Positions 4,592 to 29,833 of a DNA stretch of 32,600 nucleotides are shown one piece after another. The notes beneath the pieces are model-generated. The model ran no database searches. It saw only the letters and a program-made list of their open reading frames with translations, and had not been told where the DNA came from. The position numbers were made by a program, and so were the translations under genes. Within the stretch, counting starts at the first letter, position 1, and each line of letters opens with the position of its first letter. Source of the DNA: Candidatus Tayloriibacteriota bacterium (lineage in GTDB: Bacteria; Patescibacteriota; Minisyncoccia; Phycocordibacterales; CAIRYW01); the NCBI GenBank assembly GCA_029288615.1, contig JARIGV010000037.1:1-32600 (forward strand), written 5' to 3'.

Positions 4592-4772
4592 GATTATGGG
4601 GAGGAACTACGTGATGCTACACCACGCAAGTACCGGTAAACCGGCAACCGATCCGAGGACGACACGGAACGACACGAAGCGAGCGATAACGCGCGCGCTG
4701 CGAACCAAAGGACTGGGAAGGAGCTGTGCGACCATGACGGAACGATGCGGGAATTGCGGTAGGTATCATTGA
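4592..4772 (-). ncRNA. Candidate GC-rich small RNA (or very short leaderless basic ORF)
   Basis: Minus promoter GTGACA-16-TAATAT (4779-4806), terminator at 4564-4591, GC content visibly above flanks, no convincing protein. Confidence 0.45.
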
Positions 4773-9423: not shown

Positions 9424-9445
9424 TCGCTCCTTACATTAGGAGCGA
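9424..9445 (-). terminator. Intrinsic terminator
   Basis: TCGCTCCT...AGGAGCGA with T-rich minus tail. Confidence 0.75.
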
Positions 9446-9618
9446 GTAACGAAACGACCTGCAAAACAAGTGGCTAAGCAGCCAAGGAAACACGGACCGA
9501 ACCATTCGGACGTAGCTAATGGAAAGCCATCCGGTCTGTGTGCTTCGACGACGATTGTAACGGCAGCGAGTGCCAGTACACCACTTATGACATAAAGGAC
9601 AGTTCTTGGGCGGAACAT
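9436..9618 (-). CDS. Small two-TM membrane protein (60 aa)
   Basis: Two hydrophobic segments; terminator at its 3' end. Confidence 0.5.
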   Translation of the reverse strand: MFRPRTVLYVISGVLALAAVTIVVEAHRPDGFPLATSEWFGPCFLGCLATCFAGRFVTRS

Positions 9619-9704: not shown

Positions 9705-9923
9705 TCAAGGAATGAAGCGGTAGAAGTTGCGGCGCAAGTTCCAGGCAATCAGAATAAACTGGAAGCCTACAGCCATGGCGACAATGCCCCACAAGAACCA
9801 GTCGGCCGATTTTTGCTCCCAGAGCCAGTCGCACCCGCCAGCAAAGGCAATGAAACCTAGCACAAGAAGTGGCCAGCCAAGTGCACGCAAAATATGCGCC
9901 ATAATGTGAGAGGAACTAATCAT
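9705..9923 (-). CDS. Small membrane protein (start MISSSHIM chosen)
   Basis: Two TM segments (LLVLGFIAFAGG, FLWGIVAMAVGFQFILIAW); TATAAA 7 nt before ATG. Confidence 0.6.
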   Translation of the reverse strand: MISSSHIMAHILRALGWPLLVLGFIAFAGGCDWLWEQKSADWFLWGIVAMAVGFQFILIAWNLRRNFYRFIP

Positions 9924-15078: not shown

Positions 15079-15852
15079 TTATAGAAGGAAGAAAAAAGCG
15101 ACGATAGAAATGATGATGCGGTACCAACCGAAGACCGCGAAGCTGTGTTTTTGAATATAGCCAAGGAAAGTTCTGATCGCAAAGTATGCAACGACAAATG
15201 ATACAAGAAATCCCCAGATAAGAATTCCGAAATTTCCCGCAAGAATGGTTTTGTAATTTTTAAGAATATCGAGCCCTGATGCTGCGATCATTGTAGGAAT
15301 AGCGAGCATGAAAGAAAATTCAACGATCTCCTTTCGAGAGATTCCCATGAGTCTCCCACCGATAATTGTCGCTGCGGAGCGAGACACGCCAGGAATAAGA
15401 GCAATCGATTGATAGAGACCAACAAAGAAAGATTTTTTATAAGAAATGTCAGAGAAATTTTCTACTCGAATTTTTTCTGTCTGCTTCTTCTCCCATCTGG
15501 CGAAAAGAAGAATTACGATACCTCCAAGGAAAAGCGCAGCAACGACGACAGCATTGCTTCCAAGAAGTGATTTCACGATCTTATATACCGTAAGACCGAT
15601 GACTGCTGTCGGCAAAAATGCAACCAAAACTTTTTTTGAAAGCTCAATGTTTTTGACGAGAGTTTTCGCGTAAAGAATTACCGCAGCAAGAATTGCTCCA
15701 AGCTGGATGATGATCTCAAAGCTTTTGAGAAAATCAGAATCTGGAATATGAAGAAGCGCCGATGTAAGGATCATATGTCCTGTTGAAGAGATAGGAAGAA
15801 ACTCTGTAATACCTTCAACGATACCTAAAATTGTTGCATCAAAATAATTCAT
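15079..15852 (-). CDS. uppP: Undecaprenyl-diphosphatase
   Basis: GIVEGITEFLPISSTGHMIL and IPGVSRSAATIIGGRLMG. Confidence 0.95.
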   Translation of the reverse strand: MNYFDATILGIVEGITEFLPISSTGHMILTSALLHIPDSDFLKSFEIIIQLGAILAAVILYAKTLVKNIELSKKVLVAFLPTAVIGLTVYKIVKSLLGSNAVVVAALFLGGIVILLFARWEKKQTEKIRVENFSDISYKKSFFVGLYQSIALIPGVSRSAATIIGGRLMGISRKEIVEFSFMLAIPTMIAASGLDILKNYKTILAGNFGILIWGFLVSFVVAYFAIRTFLGYIQKHSFAVFGWYRIIISIVAFFFLL

Positions 15853-15866
15853 ATATCTATTGTAAC

Positions 15867-15894
15867 AAAAATCCCGCAGCGAGTGCGGGATTTT
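15867..15894 (-). terminator. Intrinsic terminator at end of export operon
   Basis: AAAATCCCGCA...TGCGGGATTTT. Confidence 0.8.
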
Positions 15895-15897
15895 CTA

Positions 15898-16362
15898 TTA
15901 TTGATTTAATGTTTGAGCAGTTGTTGTAGCAGCTCCTCTACTTTCTGGTCTAATCTGAATTGATGACGCTGTGATTGAACCATCGCCATTTGTCTGTCCC
16001 GAGATCATAACACTCTCTCCGGCACTCACATCTGAGAGATTTCCTGGTACTGTTTTTTGTACTTGTGTTGATGGTGCAAGAAGAATCACTTTCGAGCTTC
16101 CATCCTGTGTCTGAATAGTCACGCTTTGGCTGTCAGATGACACAACATTTCCAACTGTAAATCCGCCGGCCGCTCCTGCACCTCCGCGTCGTGCATTTGC
16201 GCCTCGTGCAAATGTGCCACCACCAAATTGTCCGGCAAATTGCCCAGCCGCTCCTGAAGCTGTTCCCTTTTTACCAGATGCATAGCCAGCCCAGAAACAT
16301 AGCGCAGCAATGATCGCCACAACGACAAACAAAATTATTTTATTCTTTTTATGTATATTCAT
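15898..16362 (-). CDS. Membrane-anchored Gly/Ala-rich protein with DUF5666-like domain
   Basis: N-terminal TM, GAAGQFAGQFGGGTFARGANARRGGAGAAGG, then VVSSDSQSVTIQTQDGSSKVILL. Confidence 0.6.
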   Translation of the reverse strand: MNIHKKNKIILFVVVAIIAALCFWAGYASGKKGTASGAAGQFAGQFGGGTFARGANARRGGAGAAGGFTVGNVVSSDSQSVTIQTQDGSSKVILLAPSTQVQKTVPGNLSDVSAGESVMISGQTNGDGSITASSIQIRPESRGAATTTAQTLNQ

Positions 16363-21037: not shown

Positions 21038-21619
21038 CTAACCGGGGTCTTCTAACTTTTTTCTAAGAAGCGTGAGAGCTCGGCGGTGCTGACTTTTGAC
21101 TGTGTTAAGAGGCTTATCGAGTGCTTCAGAAATCTCTTCAAAAGACATATCTTCGTTATACCGAAGAAGCATGACAGCTCGATAATGATCCGGTAATTCT
21201 TTTACTACTTTTTCAATAAGTTCCCCTATTTCTTTTTTCTCAAATACTTCATGCGGGAGTGGCTCTTCATCTGATATTTTCTCCTCAAATCGCACATCAT
21301 CGTCCTCTCTTTCCAAAGATGAAAACTGAAGTGGTTTCTTTTTACGCAAAAAATCGATCGCAGTATTTCGAGCAATGCTCATTGCCCATGTTTTGAAATT
21401 ATGTTTATCGTCGTACTTTTTAAAATTCTTCCAAATCTTATAGAAAGATTCCTGCACAATATCAGCCGCTTCATCAGAACCACCGAGAAAGAAATAGATG
21501 AAGTTGTAGAGCGAAGTTGTATATCTTTCAACAAGCACATCAAAAGCCACTTCATTTCCCTGTCTGAATTCAGCAATAAGATCTTGATCTGTTTTATTTT
21601 TATTGTCTGTATCCGCCAT
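21038..21619 (-). CDS. RNA polymerase sigma factor, ECF/sigma-70 family
   Basis: Region 2 DIVQESFYKIWKNFKKYD..FKTWAMSIARNTAIDFLRKKK; region 4 LPDHYRAVMLLRYNEDMSFEEISEALDKPLNTVKSQHRRAL. Confidence 0.94.
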   Translation of the reverse strand: MADTDNKNKTDQDLIAEFRQGNEVAFDVLVERYTTSLYNFIYFFLGGSDEAADIVQESFYKIWKNFKKYDDKHNFKTWAMSIARNTAIDFLRKKKPLQFSSLEREDDDVRFEEKISDEEPLPHEVFEKKEIGELIEKVVKELPDHYRAVMLLRYNEDMSFEEISEALDKPLNTVKSQHRRALTLLRKKLEDPG

Positions 21620-21890: not shown

Positions 21891-23375
21891 ATGAGATTTT
21901 CACAAAAAAAAGACCTTAAGATTCTTTTCGTCGGCTCCGAAGCGGTACCTTTTGTAAAAGTAGGCGGACTCGGTGAAGTACTCTACTCTCTTCCAAAAGC
22001 ACTTCGTGAAATCGGTCACGATGCACGTGTTTTTATTCCTTCATATGCGACCATTGATAAAAACGCATTTCCTACAAAATATGTCATAGAAGGTCTAGCG
22101 GTGCCGAATAATGGCAAGGACGATCTCATTTGTAATGTAAGAGAACACACTGATGACAACGGCGTCATCAGCTATTTCCTTGAGAATCAGGAATACTATG
22201 AAAAAAGAGGAAGTGTGTATGGATACGATGACGATGCAGCACGTTGGGCTCTTCTTTCTCGTGGAGTTCTTGAATTTGTTCGCAAATATGGTGACTGGCG
22301 TCCAGACATTATTGTTGCAAACGACTGGCAGGGCGGACTCATTCCAAATTACGCAAAAACTGATTACAAAGATGATCCTACTATTTCAAAAATTCCGATC
22401 GTGTTTGTGATTCACAATATCCACTATCAGGGGCTATTCGATCACAGACATGTGAGTGACTTTGATTACGACGATGGTCAGTCTCAGATCCCTGCTATTA
22501 CGGACTCTGCGCTTCTCAAGAAGAATTTCATGCGCCGCGGTATTCGCTTTGCGGACATCGTCAACACCGTATCGCCAACATATGCACGTGAGATCACCAC
22601 TCCTGAATTTGGAGAACTTCTTGATCCCCTTCTCCAGGAAATGCGTTCAAAACTTTTTGGAATTTTAAATGGTATCAACTACGAGAATTATGATCCAAAA
22701 ACGAATCCTTATATTGAATTTAATTATGATGCAAAACATCTTGAAGAGCGTGCGAAGAACAAAATCGCACTTCAGCAGAAGTTTAATCTTCCCAAAAAAG
22801 ATGTCTTTGTAGCAGCTGTCGTCTCACGTCTTTCTTCTCAAAAAGGACTCGATCTTATCATCAAGTCGATCGATCATCTTCTTGCAAACTTTGATTTCCA
22901 ATTCATCGTCCTTGGTTCTGGATCATCCACATATCACGCACATTTTGAAAAACTTGCTGCCGAATATCCAGAAAAAATTGCAATCCACCTTTCATTCGAT
23001 AACGTACTGCCCCATCTCGTATTCGCAGGCGCAGACTGCATCTTTATTCCTTCAAAGTTTGAGCCATCAGGTCTTACTCAGATGGAATCGATGCGTTATG
23101 GCGCTATCCCTCTTGTACGAAAGACGGGCGGCCTTGCTGATAGCGTAGAAGATTACAATCCGACCGAGCAAACGGGTACAGGATTTGTTTTTGAAAAATA
23201 CGACGAGCATGCATTCTTTGGAGCATGCGTGAGAGCATTTGAGACATATAAATATCCAAAGTTCTGGCAAGGACTTCAGAAGCGAGCGATGGCGGCAAAT
23301 TTCTCATGGGAGAAATCTGCAAAAGAATACGTAAAACTTTTTGAACGAGCGCTCGCTGAAATCAGCAATAAATAA
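21891..23375 (+). CDS. glgA: Glycogen synthase (GT5)
   Basis: FVGSEAVPFVKVGGLGEVLYSLPKAL, DWQGGLIP, FIPSKFEPSGLTQMESMRYGAIPLVRKTGGLADSV. Confidence 0.93.
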   Translation: MRFSQKKDLKILFVGSEAVPFVKVGGLGEVLYSLPKALREIGHDARVFIPSYATIDKNAFPTKYVIEGLAVPNNGKDDLICNVREHTDDNGVISYFLENQEYYEKRGSVYGYDDDAARWALLSRGVLEFVRKYGDWRPDIIVANDWQGGLIPNYAKTDYKDDPTISKIPIVFVIHNIHYQGLFDHRHVSDFDYDDGQSQIPAITDSALLKKNFMRRGIRFADIVNTVSPTYAREITTPEFGELLDPLLQEMRSKLFGILNGINYENYDPKTNPYIEFNYDAKHLEERAKNKIALQQKFNLPKKDVFVAAVVSRLSSQKGLDLIIKSIDHLLANFDFQFIVLGSGSSTYHAHFEKLAAEYPEKIAIHLSFDNVLPHLVFAGADCIFIPSKFEPSGLTQMESMRYGAIPLVRKTGGLADSVEDYNPTEQTGTGFVFEKYDEHAFFGACVRAFETYKYPKFWQGLQKRAMAANFSWEKSAKEYVKLFERALAEISNK

Positions 23376-23376
23376 T

Positions 23377-25077
23377 ATGGAGGAGAAGGACACGCTCTCA
23401 TGGTTTCAAAGCTTTCCTCAAAGCGAAGAATATAAGAAATTTAAAGCATCTCCTGTTGCTTATTTTTCTGCTGAATACGCTCTAGCACCCTACATCCCAA
23501 CCTATGCTGGAGGTCTTGGGGTACTTGCGGGGGATACAGTTCGTGAAGCGGCAGAAAGAAACTTCCCTCTCATCGCTATTGGCCTCATGTATAGCAAGGC
23601 ACAGTATGATCTCACAGAAGATTCTGTCGCATATGTACCGAAAGAAAGCGATGGATTTTCTGTTGCTCGAAATGAAAATGGCGAGCGCATTCTTATTTCT
23701 GTTCCGATTTATCATGAAAAGATTTTTGCTGAGGCGTGGAAATATACAAACAAAAATGAAAGCACTGCACCGATCTATTTTCTAAATACTAATATTCCTG
23801 AAAATGATCCTAGTTCGCGAAAAATAACAGAAAGACTTTATGTCGACGATCGAGAAACACGACTGAAGCAAGAAATCCTTTTAGGTATCGGCGGACACAG
23901 ACTCATTCACGCTCTCGGTATTCACCCTTCTGTCTTTCATCTCAATGAAGGTCACAGCGCATTTCTCGCACTCGAACTTGTTCATCACGAAATGATCCAT
24001 CAGCGCGTCGATTTCTTTACTGCATGTGACTATGCACGAAAGCATATTATTTTTACAAACCACACACTTGTTGCTGCTGGTAATGAGCAATTCGGCGCAG
24101 ATGTTGTTTCTGCAATGATTGCAAAATACGCTGAGGAGATGCAGGTGGCAGTCAGTGACATTGTCTCTCTTGGTCTTCTTCCTGATTCAAATATTTTCTC
24201 GATGACTTCCCTTTCTTTCAGGCTCTCTCGAAAAGCATCCGCAGTAAGCAAGCTCCATGCAAAAAAAGCTCATGAGATCTGGAAAGATAATCCGATGGAA
24301 GAAGTGACAAATGGCATTTATATTCCACTCTGGGACAAAACAAAAAATACATCCCAAATTTCCGGAGTGCACAAAGATAACAAGAAGAATCTTCTTTCAT
24401 TCATTAAAGAAAAAACTGAGAAAGAATGGGCTGAAAATTCTTTTATCATCGGCTGGGCACGTCGCATCGTTCCCTACAAGAGACCGCTTGAACTTTTCTC
24501 TGACATTGAAGGACTTCAGAAACTTATCAAAAATTCTCCGGTGCCAATAAAAATAGTTTTCTCAGGACCAACACGAAACGGCGAACAAGGAAATGAAATG
24601 GTGCAGCGCCTTCGCGAAACAATCGAGGAACATTTTGGTGATTCTGCAGTCTTTCTTCCACACTACAACCTCGATATCGCATCAAAGATGGTTTCGGGTG
24701 CAGACATTTGGCTTAACACTCCCGTTGTTGGTACAGAAGCATGCGGTACAAGCGGCATGAAAGCAGCTCTCAATGGCACACTCGCCCTCTCTACTGCTGA
24801 TGGTTGGATCGCAGAGATTTCTCCTTCTGATGTTGGTTTTATAGTTGATGATCCAAACCTTTCTGAAAAAATAATCACAAAGATCGAGAAAGAAATTATC
24901 CCTCTTTATCTTTTCTCTGACTTTGAAGTCGGTACAGATTCTCCTTGGGTCTCAAAGATGAAGAAAGCTCGCGCGCTCATTCTTAAACAATTCGGTACAG
25001 ATCGAATGCTCCGCGAATATATTGAGAAGCTTTACATCCCCACTCTCGCAGAGAAGCATAAACATTTGTACGAATAA
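23377..25077 (+). CDS. Alpha-glucan phosphorylase family protein (start MEEKDT chosen)
   Basis: YFSAEYALAPYIPTYAGGLGVLAGDT, HLNEGHSAFLALEL, VVGTEACGTSGMKAALNGTL. Confidence 0.9.
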   Translation: MEEKDTLSWFQSFPQSEEYKKFKASPVAYFSAEYALAPYIPTYAGGLGVLAGDTVREAAERNFPLIAIGLMYSKAQYDLTEDSVAYVPKESDGFSVARNENGERILISVPIYHEKIFAEAWKYTNKNESTAPIYFLNTNIPENDPSSRKITERLYVDDRETRLKQEILLGIGGHRLIHALGIHPSVFHLNEGHSAFLALELVHHEMIHQRVDFFTACDYARKHIIFTNHTLVAAGNEQFGADVVSAMIAKYAEEMQVAVSDIVSLGLLPDSNIFSMTSLSFRLSRKASAVSKLHAKKAHEIWKDNPMEEVTNGIYIPLWDKTKNTSQISGVHKDNKKNLLSFIKEKTEKEWAENSFIIGWARRIVPYKRPLELFSDIEGLQKLIKNSPVPIKIVFSGPTRNGEQGNEMVQRLRETIEEHFGDSAVFLPHYNLDIASKMVSGADIWLNTPVVGTEACGTSGMKAALNGTLALSTADGWIAEISPSDVGFIVDDPNLSEKIITKIEKEIIPLYLFSDFEVGTDSPWVSKMKKARALILKQFGTDRMLREYIEKLYIPTLAEKHKHLYE

Positions 25078-25107
25078 ATTCGTGAAATATTTTCTTGTCT
25101 GTATAAT

Positions 25108-25475
25108 CAGATTCAGCGAAAGGAGGAAAAGCCGATGAAAACAACCGGCAACACCCGCTGAATCTGGCCTTCGGTCTCGGTAGTAAAGCTTTTGCACCTC
25201 TTACGGGTATAAACACTAAGAGTGACTCTTCGGAGTTATGCAATTGAGTAAATTCCTTTGGCATAGTCTTACGTGAGCCCCTTCAGACCAGTAGGATGTA
25301 GATTCGTAAAGACTCGAAACGAAAGTTTCACCAAAGAAGAGTCCCGAGCAGTACATTGCGCGTCGATAGACGTACGGAGAAATCCGTGTGGTGCGTGAAC
25401 CATCACGAAAAGGTTATCTCCTTTATGGAGTTCGTGTTCACAAGCGACGGCATACCAATGTCGTCGCTTCTTTTT
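25108..25475 (+). ncRNA. Candidate novel ~370-nt structured RNA
   Basis: TATAAT at 25102-25107, 11-bp perfect 5' stem, several hairpins with GNRA/UUCG-type loops, strong 3' terminator, no protein ORF. Confidence 0.65.
25442..25475 (+). terminator. Intrinsic terminator of the structured RNA
   Basis: AAGCGACGGCAT-ACCA-ATGTCGTCGCTT then CTTTTT. Confidence 0.88.
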
Positions 25476-26241
25476 ATAGCCAACTCTCAATAAGCTTCGC
25501 TGTTTCGTGATGGTCTTTGACCGTAGCAGTATCAATTCCTGCCTCTTTTACTGGATAATCATTACCTCCAAGAAAAATTGCATCTCCCGCATAAATCATA
25601 TCGGAAAGAGAAAGATCTTTTCGTTTTAAAAGATTTGTAAGACCCACCCCCTTGTTAAATCCTTTTGGCAAAATATCGATCGTTGAATTACCTCCGAGTA
25701 CAAAATCAGCTGATGTGATTTTTTTCTCTAGTTCCTCTTTTATGGCAAATCGTTTTTTCTTGTCTGGATCCCAATTTCTTTTTGCTTCAAGCGGTGCGTC
25801 GTGTCCAAGCCCAGATAGTGATACCTGCATGCCGCGGTCCGTCACAATTGGTCCCACTGGGTTTTTTGAGATGTCGTATTTTCCTGATGCAACAATCTCA
25901 TTCAAAGCTGCAATAATGTCTTCTTTATCAAGAAACACAAGATCTTCTTTGAAGCTAAGTTCCCATTTTTTCGTATTTTTATCATATGTAAAACTTTGTG
26001 TTCCATTTGTTGGAAGAAGAATAAGATTTTCTTTTACAGAATCAGTTTCTGGTTCTATGACCGATAAAAGATCCCCTAGCTGAAAGGTAAGTTTTTCAAA
26101 TGCTGCACCTGTAATAATTGCAACTGGAATTTTTCGAAGAAGTTTGGTCAAAATTTCTGCCATATCTTTTTTCATCGGCTGATTATTTTCGGTCAAAGTT
26201 CCATCGAGATCGAATCCTGCAATTTTCTTATTTATTTTCAT
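25474..26241 (-). CDS. HAD-IIB family phosphatase (phosphomannomutase-like)
   Basis: IAGFDLDGTLTENNQPM, VAIITGAAF, GFNKGVGLTNL, YAGDAIFLGGND. Confidence 0.8.
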   Translation of the reverse strand: MKINKKIAGFDLDGTLTENNQPMKKDMAEILTKLLRKIPVAIITGAAFEKLTFQLGDLLSVIEPETDSVKENLILLPTNGTQSFTYDKNTKKWELSFKEDLVFLDKEDIIAALNEIVASGKYDISKNPVGPIVTDRGMQVSLSGLGHDAPLEAKRNWDPDKKKRFAIKEELEKKITSADFVLGGNSTIDILPKGFNKGVGLTNLLKRKDLSLSDMIYAGDAIFLGGNDYPVKEAGIDTATVKDHHETAKLIESWL

Positions 26242-29749: not shown

Positions 29750-29833
29750 GCGCAGGTGTCGAAACTGGTAGACGAACTACCTTGAGGTGGTAGCGCCCGC
29801 AAGGGCATGGAGGTTCGAGTCCTCTCCTGCGCA
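29750..29833 (+). tRNA. tRNA-Leu (GAG)
   Basis: Class II cloverleaf with variable arm; anticodon loop UUGAGGU. Confidence 0.93.

Follow-up and report, generated by a model that had tools for sequence, protein, structure and literature searches.

A candidate orphan structured noncoding RNA at the 3' end of a glgA-glgP unit in a small bacterial genome

The longest gene-free gap of the window (the whole stretch of 32,600 nt analyzed here) contains a segment with stable-tetraloop hairpins on the plus strand only, an intrinsic terminator, no plus-strand protein gene 3' to it and no match to a known RNA family. Our favored reading, held tentatively and at close to an even chance, is that this segment specifies a lineage-restricted small noncoding RNA of ~330–365 nt, which forms the 3' end of the glgA-glgP unit and most likely acts in trans. 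More generally, the segment is credible as an orphan structured RNA of an already familiar sort, that of the intergenic or 3' UTR-derived small RNAs, with no known family and no relatives found. Such an RNA could come from a weak promoter of its own or from cleavage of the glgP 3' UTR; its predicted fold opens with a stem-loop, continues through a central multibranched domain and a 3' domain of hairpins, and closes with the intrinsic terminator. It might then pair with other RNAs, or bind a protein or the ribosome; with no same-strand protein gene on its 3' side, action in trans is more plausible than a role as a riboswitch. That the RNA is transcribed, where it begins, that it would act in trans and what it might target are all inferred.

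Genomic setting and predicted anatomy

The source genome comprises 788 kb in 38 contigs, is 98.8% complete and includes the window as its contig 10; the genomes of its order mates span ~0.4–1.2 Mb, and sizes of this order would suit candidate-phyla (Patescibacteria-type) bacteria. About 92% of the window is coding, and its longest CDS-free gap (25078–25473, 396 nt) separates the overlapping glgA and glgP frames from a convergent HAD-type phosphatase gene whose stop codon directly adjoins the terminator of the candidate RNA (Table 1). With a GC content of 0.45, compared with 0.31–0.46 in other gaps of the window, this gap is among the most GC-rich, and long, GC-rich gaps have served as a selection criterion in a published search for structured noncoding RNAs (PMC8632094). 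The preliminary description of this DNA had noted no plus-strand protein ORF in the segment, and we likewise found none that codon usage supported or that matched a Pfam family. Coding scores were negative or near zero with no frame supported, and on these grounds a protein-coding reading was dropped. The next supported plus-strand feature 3' of the candidate is a tRNA at 29750, no supported plus-strand protein gene follows in the remaining window, and no prophage was seen around the segment.

Table 1. Coordinates in the window of the candidate RNA, its predicted parts and the flanking genes
Feature	Position	Strand	Basis
GlgA-like starch/glycogen synthase and glucan phosphorylase (glgA-glgP), overlapping ORFs	21891–25077	+	Pfam PF08323, PF00343
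TATAAT, possible -10 box lacking a -35 box	25102–25107	+	sequence; consensus scan
Candidate structured noncoding RNA, whole (body 25108–25441 plus terminator)	25108–25475	+	gap, tetraloops, fold, no Rfam match
First stem-loop, perfect 11-bp stem (25108–25118/25156–25166), 37-nt loop	25108–25166	+	inverted repeat
Shine-Dalgarno-like AAAGGAGG	25119–25126	+	sequence
Small GCCG/CGGC hairpin in first loop	25131–25134/25146–25149	+	
8-codon ORF MKTTGNTR, start 8 nt past GGAGG	25135–25161	+	
Hairpin CTCTTA/TAAGAG, 13-nt loop	25198–25222	+	mean pair probability 0.75
Central multibranched domain with closing helix GACTCTTC/GAAGAGTC	25224–25343	+	subdomain fold z -2.45
Alternative UUCG hairpin in central domain	25224–25237	+	
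Central domain, hairpin	25232–25256	+	
Central domain, stem TTTGG/CCAAA	25257–25261/25331–25335	+	
Central domain, stem AGTCTTACG/CGTAAAGACT	25265–25273/25305–25314	+	
Central domain, GAAA hairpin	25316–25329	+	
3' domain	25344–25441	+	subdomain fold z -2.15
3' domain, GATA hairpin	25360–25373	+	
3' domain, GAAA hairpin	25374–25387	+	
3' domain, stem GTGAAC/GTTCAC, enclosing CACGAA/TTCGTG and CTCC/GGAG	25395–25400/25436–25441	+	
Intrinsic terminator with 12-bp stem and 4-nt loop, followed by CTTTTT	25442–25469	+	
HAD-type phosphatase, convergent	25474–26241	-	Pfam PF08282, PF03332, PF05116

Most of the secondary structure elements that had been listed from inspection of the letters were recovered. 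The perfect 11-bp stem CAGATTCAGCG/CGCTGAATCTG is present as described and is predicted with a pair probability of 0.99, and the 12-bp terminator lies on the plus strand at the 3' end. Both GAAA hairpins (GAAAC-GAAA-GTTTC in the central domain and ACGGA-GAAA-TCCGT in the 3' domain) and the CACGAA/TTCGTG stem (25404–25409/25431–25436) were confirmed, as was the GATA hairpin, which reads GCGTC-GATA-GACGT and has a loop outside the GNRA class. Some elements needed amendment. The pairing of AGTCTTACG with CGTAAAGACT exists, but at the site given in Table 1 and not around 25243–25300. The hairpin GACTC-TTCG-GAGTT was also found, but it competes with the long-range 8-bp helix GACTCTTC/GAAGAGTC (25224–25231/25336–25343), which the energy model favors by 2.7 kcal/mol (-116.5 kcal/mol for the fold with the helix versus -113.8 kcal/mol with the UUCG hairpin). 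On the opposite strand, a weak terminator-like site (25131–25149, minus strand) lies inside the first loop; HAD phosphatase transcripts extending to this site would run antisense to almost all of the candidate RNA.

Transcript ends and the glgA-glgP message

The TATAAT hexamer reported in the preliminary description is present immediately before the first stem, and a consensus scan found no -35 box with it and no complete sigma-70-type promoter before the segment. A start 6–8 nt past TATAAT would fall at ~25113–25115, within the first strand of the 11-bp stem, so that either the transcript would carry a shortened stem or it would begin at another site. No other plus-strand terminator was predicted in 24900–25600, and none between the glgP stop codon and 25442; glgP transcripts should therefore run into the segment, making it also the 3' end of the glgA-glgP operon.

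Together with the short distance between the glgP stop codon and the first stem (31 nt), the lack of an intervening terminator and of a complete promoter would fit a simpler arrangement, in which the segment is only a long 3' UTR and terminator of the glgA-glgP mRNA, its hairpins protecting or ending the message with no separate RNA being made. We consider this rather unlikely: ~40 nt would suffice for a terminator alone, whereas the gap has 396, no similar segment adjoins the phosphorylase in those order mates that have the enzyme, and the tetraloop-rich, multi-domain fold exceeds what a plain 3' end would need. The separate small RNA that we favor shares with 3' UTR-derived and intergenic bacterial sRNAs its place at an operon 3' end, its intrinsic terminator and its lack of both a normal-size ORF and a same-strand gene on the 3' side. 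Most such sRNAs are shorter and less branched than the candidate.

Departure from chance and the search for relatives

The fold of the whole segment had a z-score of -4.0, which fell to -2.2 when the terminator was removed and to -1.06 when the first stem was removed as well; tiles of the window had a mean of -0.58 (sd 1.33), with one tile at -5.1. Fold energy was rejected as sole evidence because it rests on the first stem and the terminator. The tile with the lowest z-score of those sampled (15541–15908, plus strand) covers the beginning of a BacA-like gene together with the adjoining hairpin AAATCCCGCAGCGAGTGCGGGATTTT.

Individual elements of the segment were more telling. A perfect 11-bp inverted repeat arose in 0.85% of shuffles (P = 0.0085). 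Hairpins with a GNRA or UNCG loop on a stem of 5 bp or more were counted in the segment and in shuffles, giving three on the plus strand and none on the minus strand against a shuffle mean of 0.15 (P(≥3) = 0.0006); this test was prompted by the hairpins listed in the preliminary description, and its P value is near 0.1 if corrected for the whole window and both strands. By the same measure, the RNase P RNA of this genome has five such hairpins, and other clusters of three in the window number none on the plus strand and one on the minus strand, near 21429. Taken together, the tetraloops, the 11-bp stem, the long and GC-rich gap, the lack of coding signal and the terminator indicate that a real plus-strand RNA is probably encoded here. 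For the small RNA reading we counted these features, with the placement of the terminator, the tRNA as next feature and the single copy in the genome; against it we counted the lack of a homologue or covariation, the near-background fold without the first stem and terminator, the corrected tetraloop probability and the lack of a complete promoter.

The same near-background fold, and the failure of every search made to find a homologue, would be expected of decayed or neutral intergenic DNA, left behind by a former gene or mobile element and folding by accident. Strand-specific tetraloop hairpins and a perfect 11-bp stem argue against such an origin, Pfam detected no gene remnant, and the surrounding window is compact; we judge it unlikely.

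The candidate RNA is single-copy in its genome. BLASTN against three family mates and an order-level set of 399 genomes found no homologue, and neither did R1, a full-length covariance model of limited reach built from the one sequence, in ~400 order genomes (overlapping draws), the 41 nearest genomes and 392 genomes of the class. With a family sample of three mates, an RNA confined to the genus would be missed. The short order-level BLASTN matches that did appear (L009–L017; E 2e-4 to 0.009, 19–50 nt) were put down to chance because nhmmer did not confirm them (best E 0.29) and they were scattered over the query. Four weak R1 matches (L043, L044, L071 and L072; 10–16 bits) were likewise set aside as fragments of 22–55 nt without RNA context, L044 and L071 lying within evident reading frames. 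Phages and plasmids gave no BLASTN match, an exact 18-mer scan of GTDB returned two loci, both unrelated, and five exact-pattern scans of IMG/VR returned 24 loci, none of which R1 matched.

Searches anchored on the flanking genes gave the same result: a search for relatives in IMG/VR with the HAD gene returned nothing, a GTDB scan with the phosphorylase returned no relative, and no second copy was found in ~1.5 kb on each side (where the contig permits) of the phosphorylase in 20 order-level genomes, the source genome included. The pairing of glgP with a HAD gene recurs without the candidate RNA in two other genomes (G001 and G251), the HAD gene lying 3' of the phosphorylase on the same strand in G251. 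In the family mate G001 (contig C28, 29321–31729, minus strand), the matches to the HAD phosphatase and to the glucan phosphorylase (L022 and L041) share one open frame of 817 aa, apparently a HAD-glucan phosphorylase fusion that links the two genes flanking the candidate RNA.

With no homologues in which to count covariation, any claim of a new class rests on one sequence. The earlier proposal of an RNA class that is novel or very divergent is upheld as far as a folded plus-strand RNA is concerned, but not as to a class, no syntenic homologues with covarying stems having been found. The candidate RNA is a candidate of one until a homologue set or a transcript is found. To our knowledge the noncoding RNAs of small-genome, candidate-phyla-type bacteria have been little mapped, and a literature search on the noncoding RNAs of such bacteria found no study. 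A gene-free gap of 396 nt in a stretch that is 92% coding, with strand-specific tetraloops and a terminator, makes a good target for RNA-seq and for searches in closer relatives.

First-loop reading frame and known RNA families

The loop of the first stem contains the Shine-Dalgarno-like AAAGGAGG and the 8-codon frame MKTTGNTR, the stop codon of which sits in the 3' arm of the stem. AAAGGAGG is complementary to TCTCCTTT at 25417–25424 (8 bp, one G-U), the chance of such a partner being 0.08, and this pairing is only suggestive of a possible pseudoknot or of masking. The window as a whole has 8 instances of the arrangement GGAGG-N5-10-ATG, compared with 3.7 expected.

At its most ambitious, the segment could represent an undescribed class of stand-alone, multi-domain RNA of ~330 nt from one little-sampled small-genome lineage, with the ribosome site and mini-ORF of the first loop coupling its fold to translation; we hold this to be decidedly unlikely. 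Like OLE, ROOL and GOLLD, the candidate is stand-alone, multi-domain and without an assigned function; unlike them it has no Rfam match, no prophage seen nearby and no homologues, and it is far shorter than GOLLD, many RNAs of which exceed 800 nt (PMC12286853).

A related proposal is a dual-function or peptide-linked RNA, in which a ribosome on AAAGGAGG would translate MKTTGNTR and open the stem, while the 3' TCTCCTTT could mask the site, so that the RNA would sense or titrate ribosomes. The 8-nt spacing of GGAGG and ATG, the stop codon within the stem and the complementarity to 25417–25424 point this way, and there is a published precedent in odc1, a gene-control element with an 11-codon uORF (PMC8632094). 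Against these stand the recurrence of the GGAGG-ATG arrangement in the window, the P value of the complementarity and the lack of conservation. The candidate resembles leader-peptide and uORF regulatory RNAs in having a Shine-Dalgarno sequence and a short ORF within a stem-loop, but in place of a plus-strand gene on its 3' side, on which cis regulation would act, it has a terminator and a convergent gene. We regard the proposal as very unlikely. A cis-regulatory riboswitch or attenuator was rejected on this same gene order, the remainder of the window having no supported plus-strand protein gene 3' of the candidate.

Other small reading frames were seen in the window. At 4600–4772 (plus strand), in a GC-rich gap of 289 nt, GGAGG is followed by a 52-codon ORF (MLHHASTGK...CGNCGRYH), possibly an unannotated small protein or an RNA. 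In an apparent long gap, two small hydrophobic ORFs of ~60–65 aa (9436–9618 and 9705–9902, both minus strand) are probably small membrane proteins.

As the preliminary description had anticipated, the candidate RNA matched no known family. A scan of the segment with Rfam 15 (4227 families, gathering and E-value modes) gave no credible match even to E = 10, the Corona_pk3 and plastid intron matches (E 1.6 and 8) being at chance level; no covariance model of ROOL, GOLLD, OLE or any other Rfam 15 family matched. The same description had set a folded RNA apart from tmRNA, RNase P RNA and SRP RNA, a distinction that our searches bear out. For tmRNA (RF00023) neither Rfam nor ARAGORN gave a match in the segment, and the tmRNA of this genome lies on another contig (C14, 112 bits). 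RNase P RNA (RF00010) was rejected since the segment is unmatched and its ends are unpaired; the candidate is of similar length to the RNase P RNA of this genome and shares with it several tetraloop-capped hairpins, but the genome already has that one, on contig C27 (95 bits, E 3e-30, slightly below the gathering score). SRP RNA gave no Rfam match to E = 10, and the helix-8 core CAGG..GNRA..AGCAG is absent from the window. 6S RNA (RF00013), which requires a rod with a central bubble and paired ends, was also unmatched.

That the segment is nevertheless a very divergent SRP, 6S or other housekeeping RNA under the reach of Rfam is highly improbable: RNase P RNAs of the Candidate Phyla Radiation can fall below Rfam thresholds (PMC8172020), and the 98.8% complete genome gave no match at E ≤ 1e-3 to RF00169 (small SRP) or RF00013, but against this stand the chance level of the two Rfam matches, the missing SRP core, the unpaired 5' and 3' ends and the tmRNA and RNase P RNA found elsewhere in the genome. 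An Rfam scan of ~105 kb from other contigs of the same genome located a LOOT RNA (RF03000; L076, contig C4, 457–581, minus strand) at 88.1 bits and E 4e-15.
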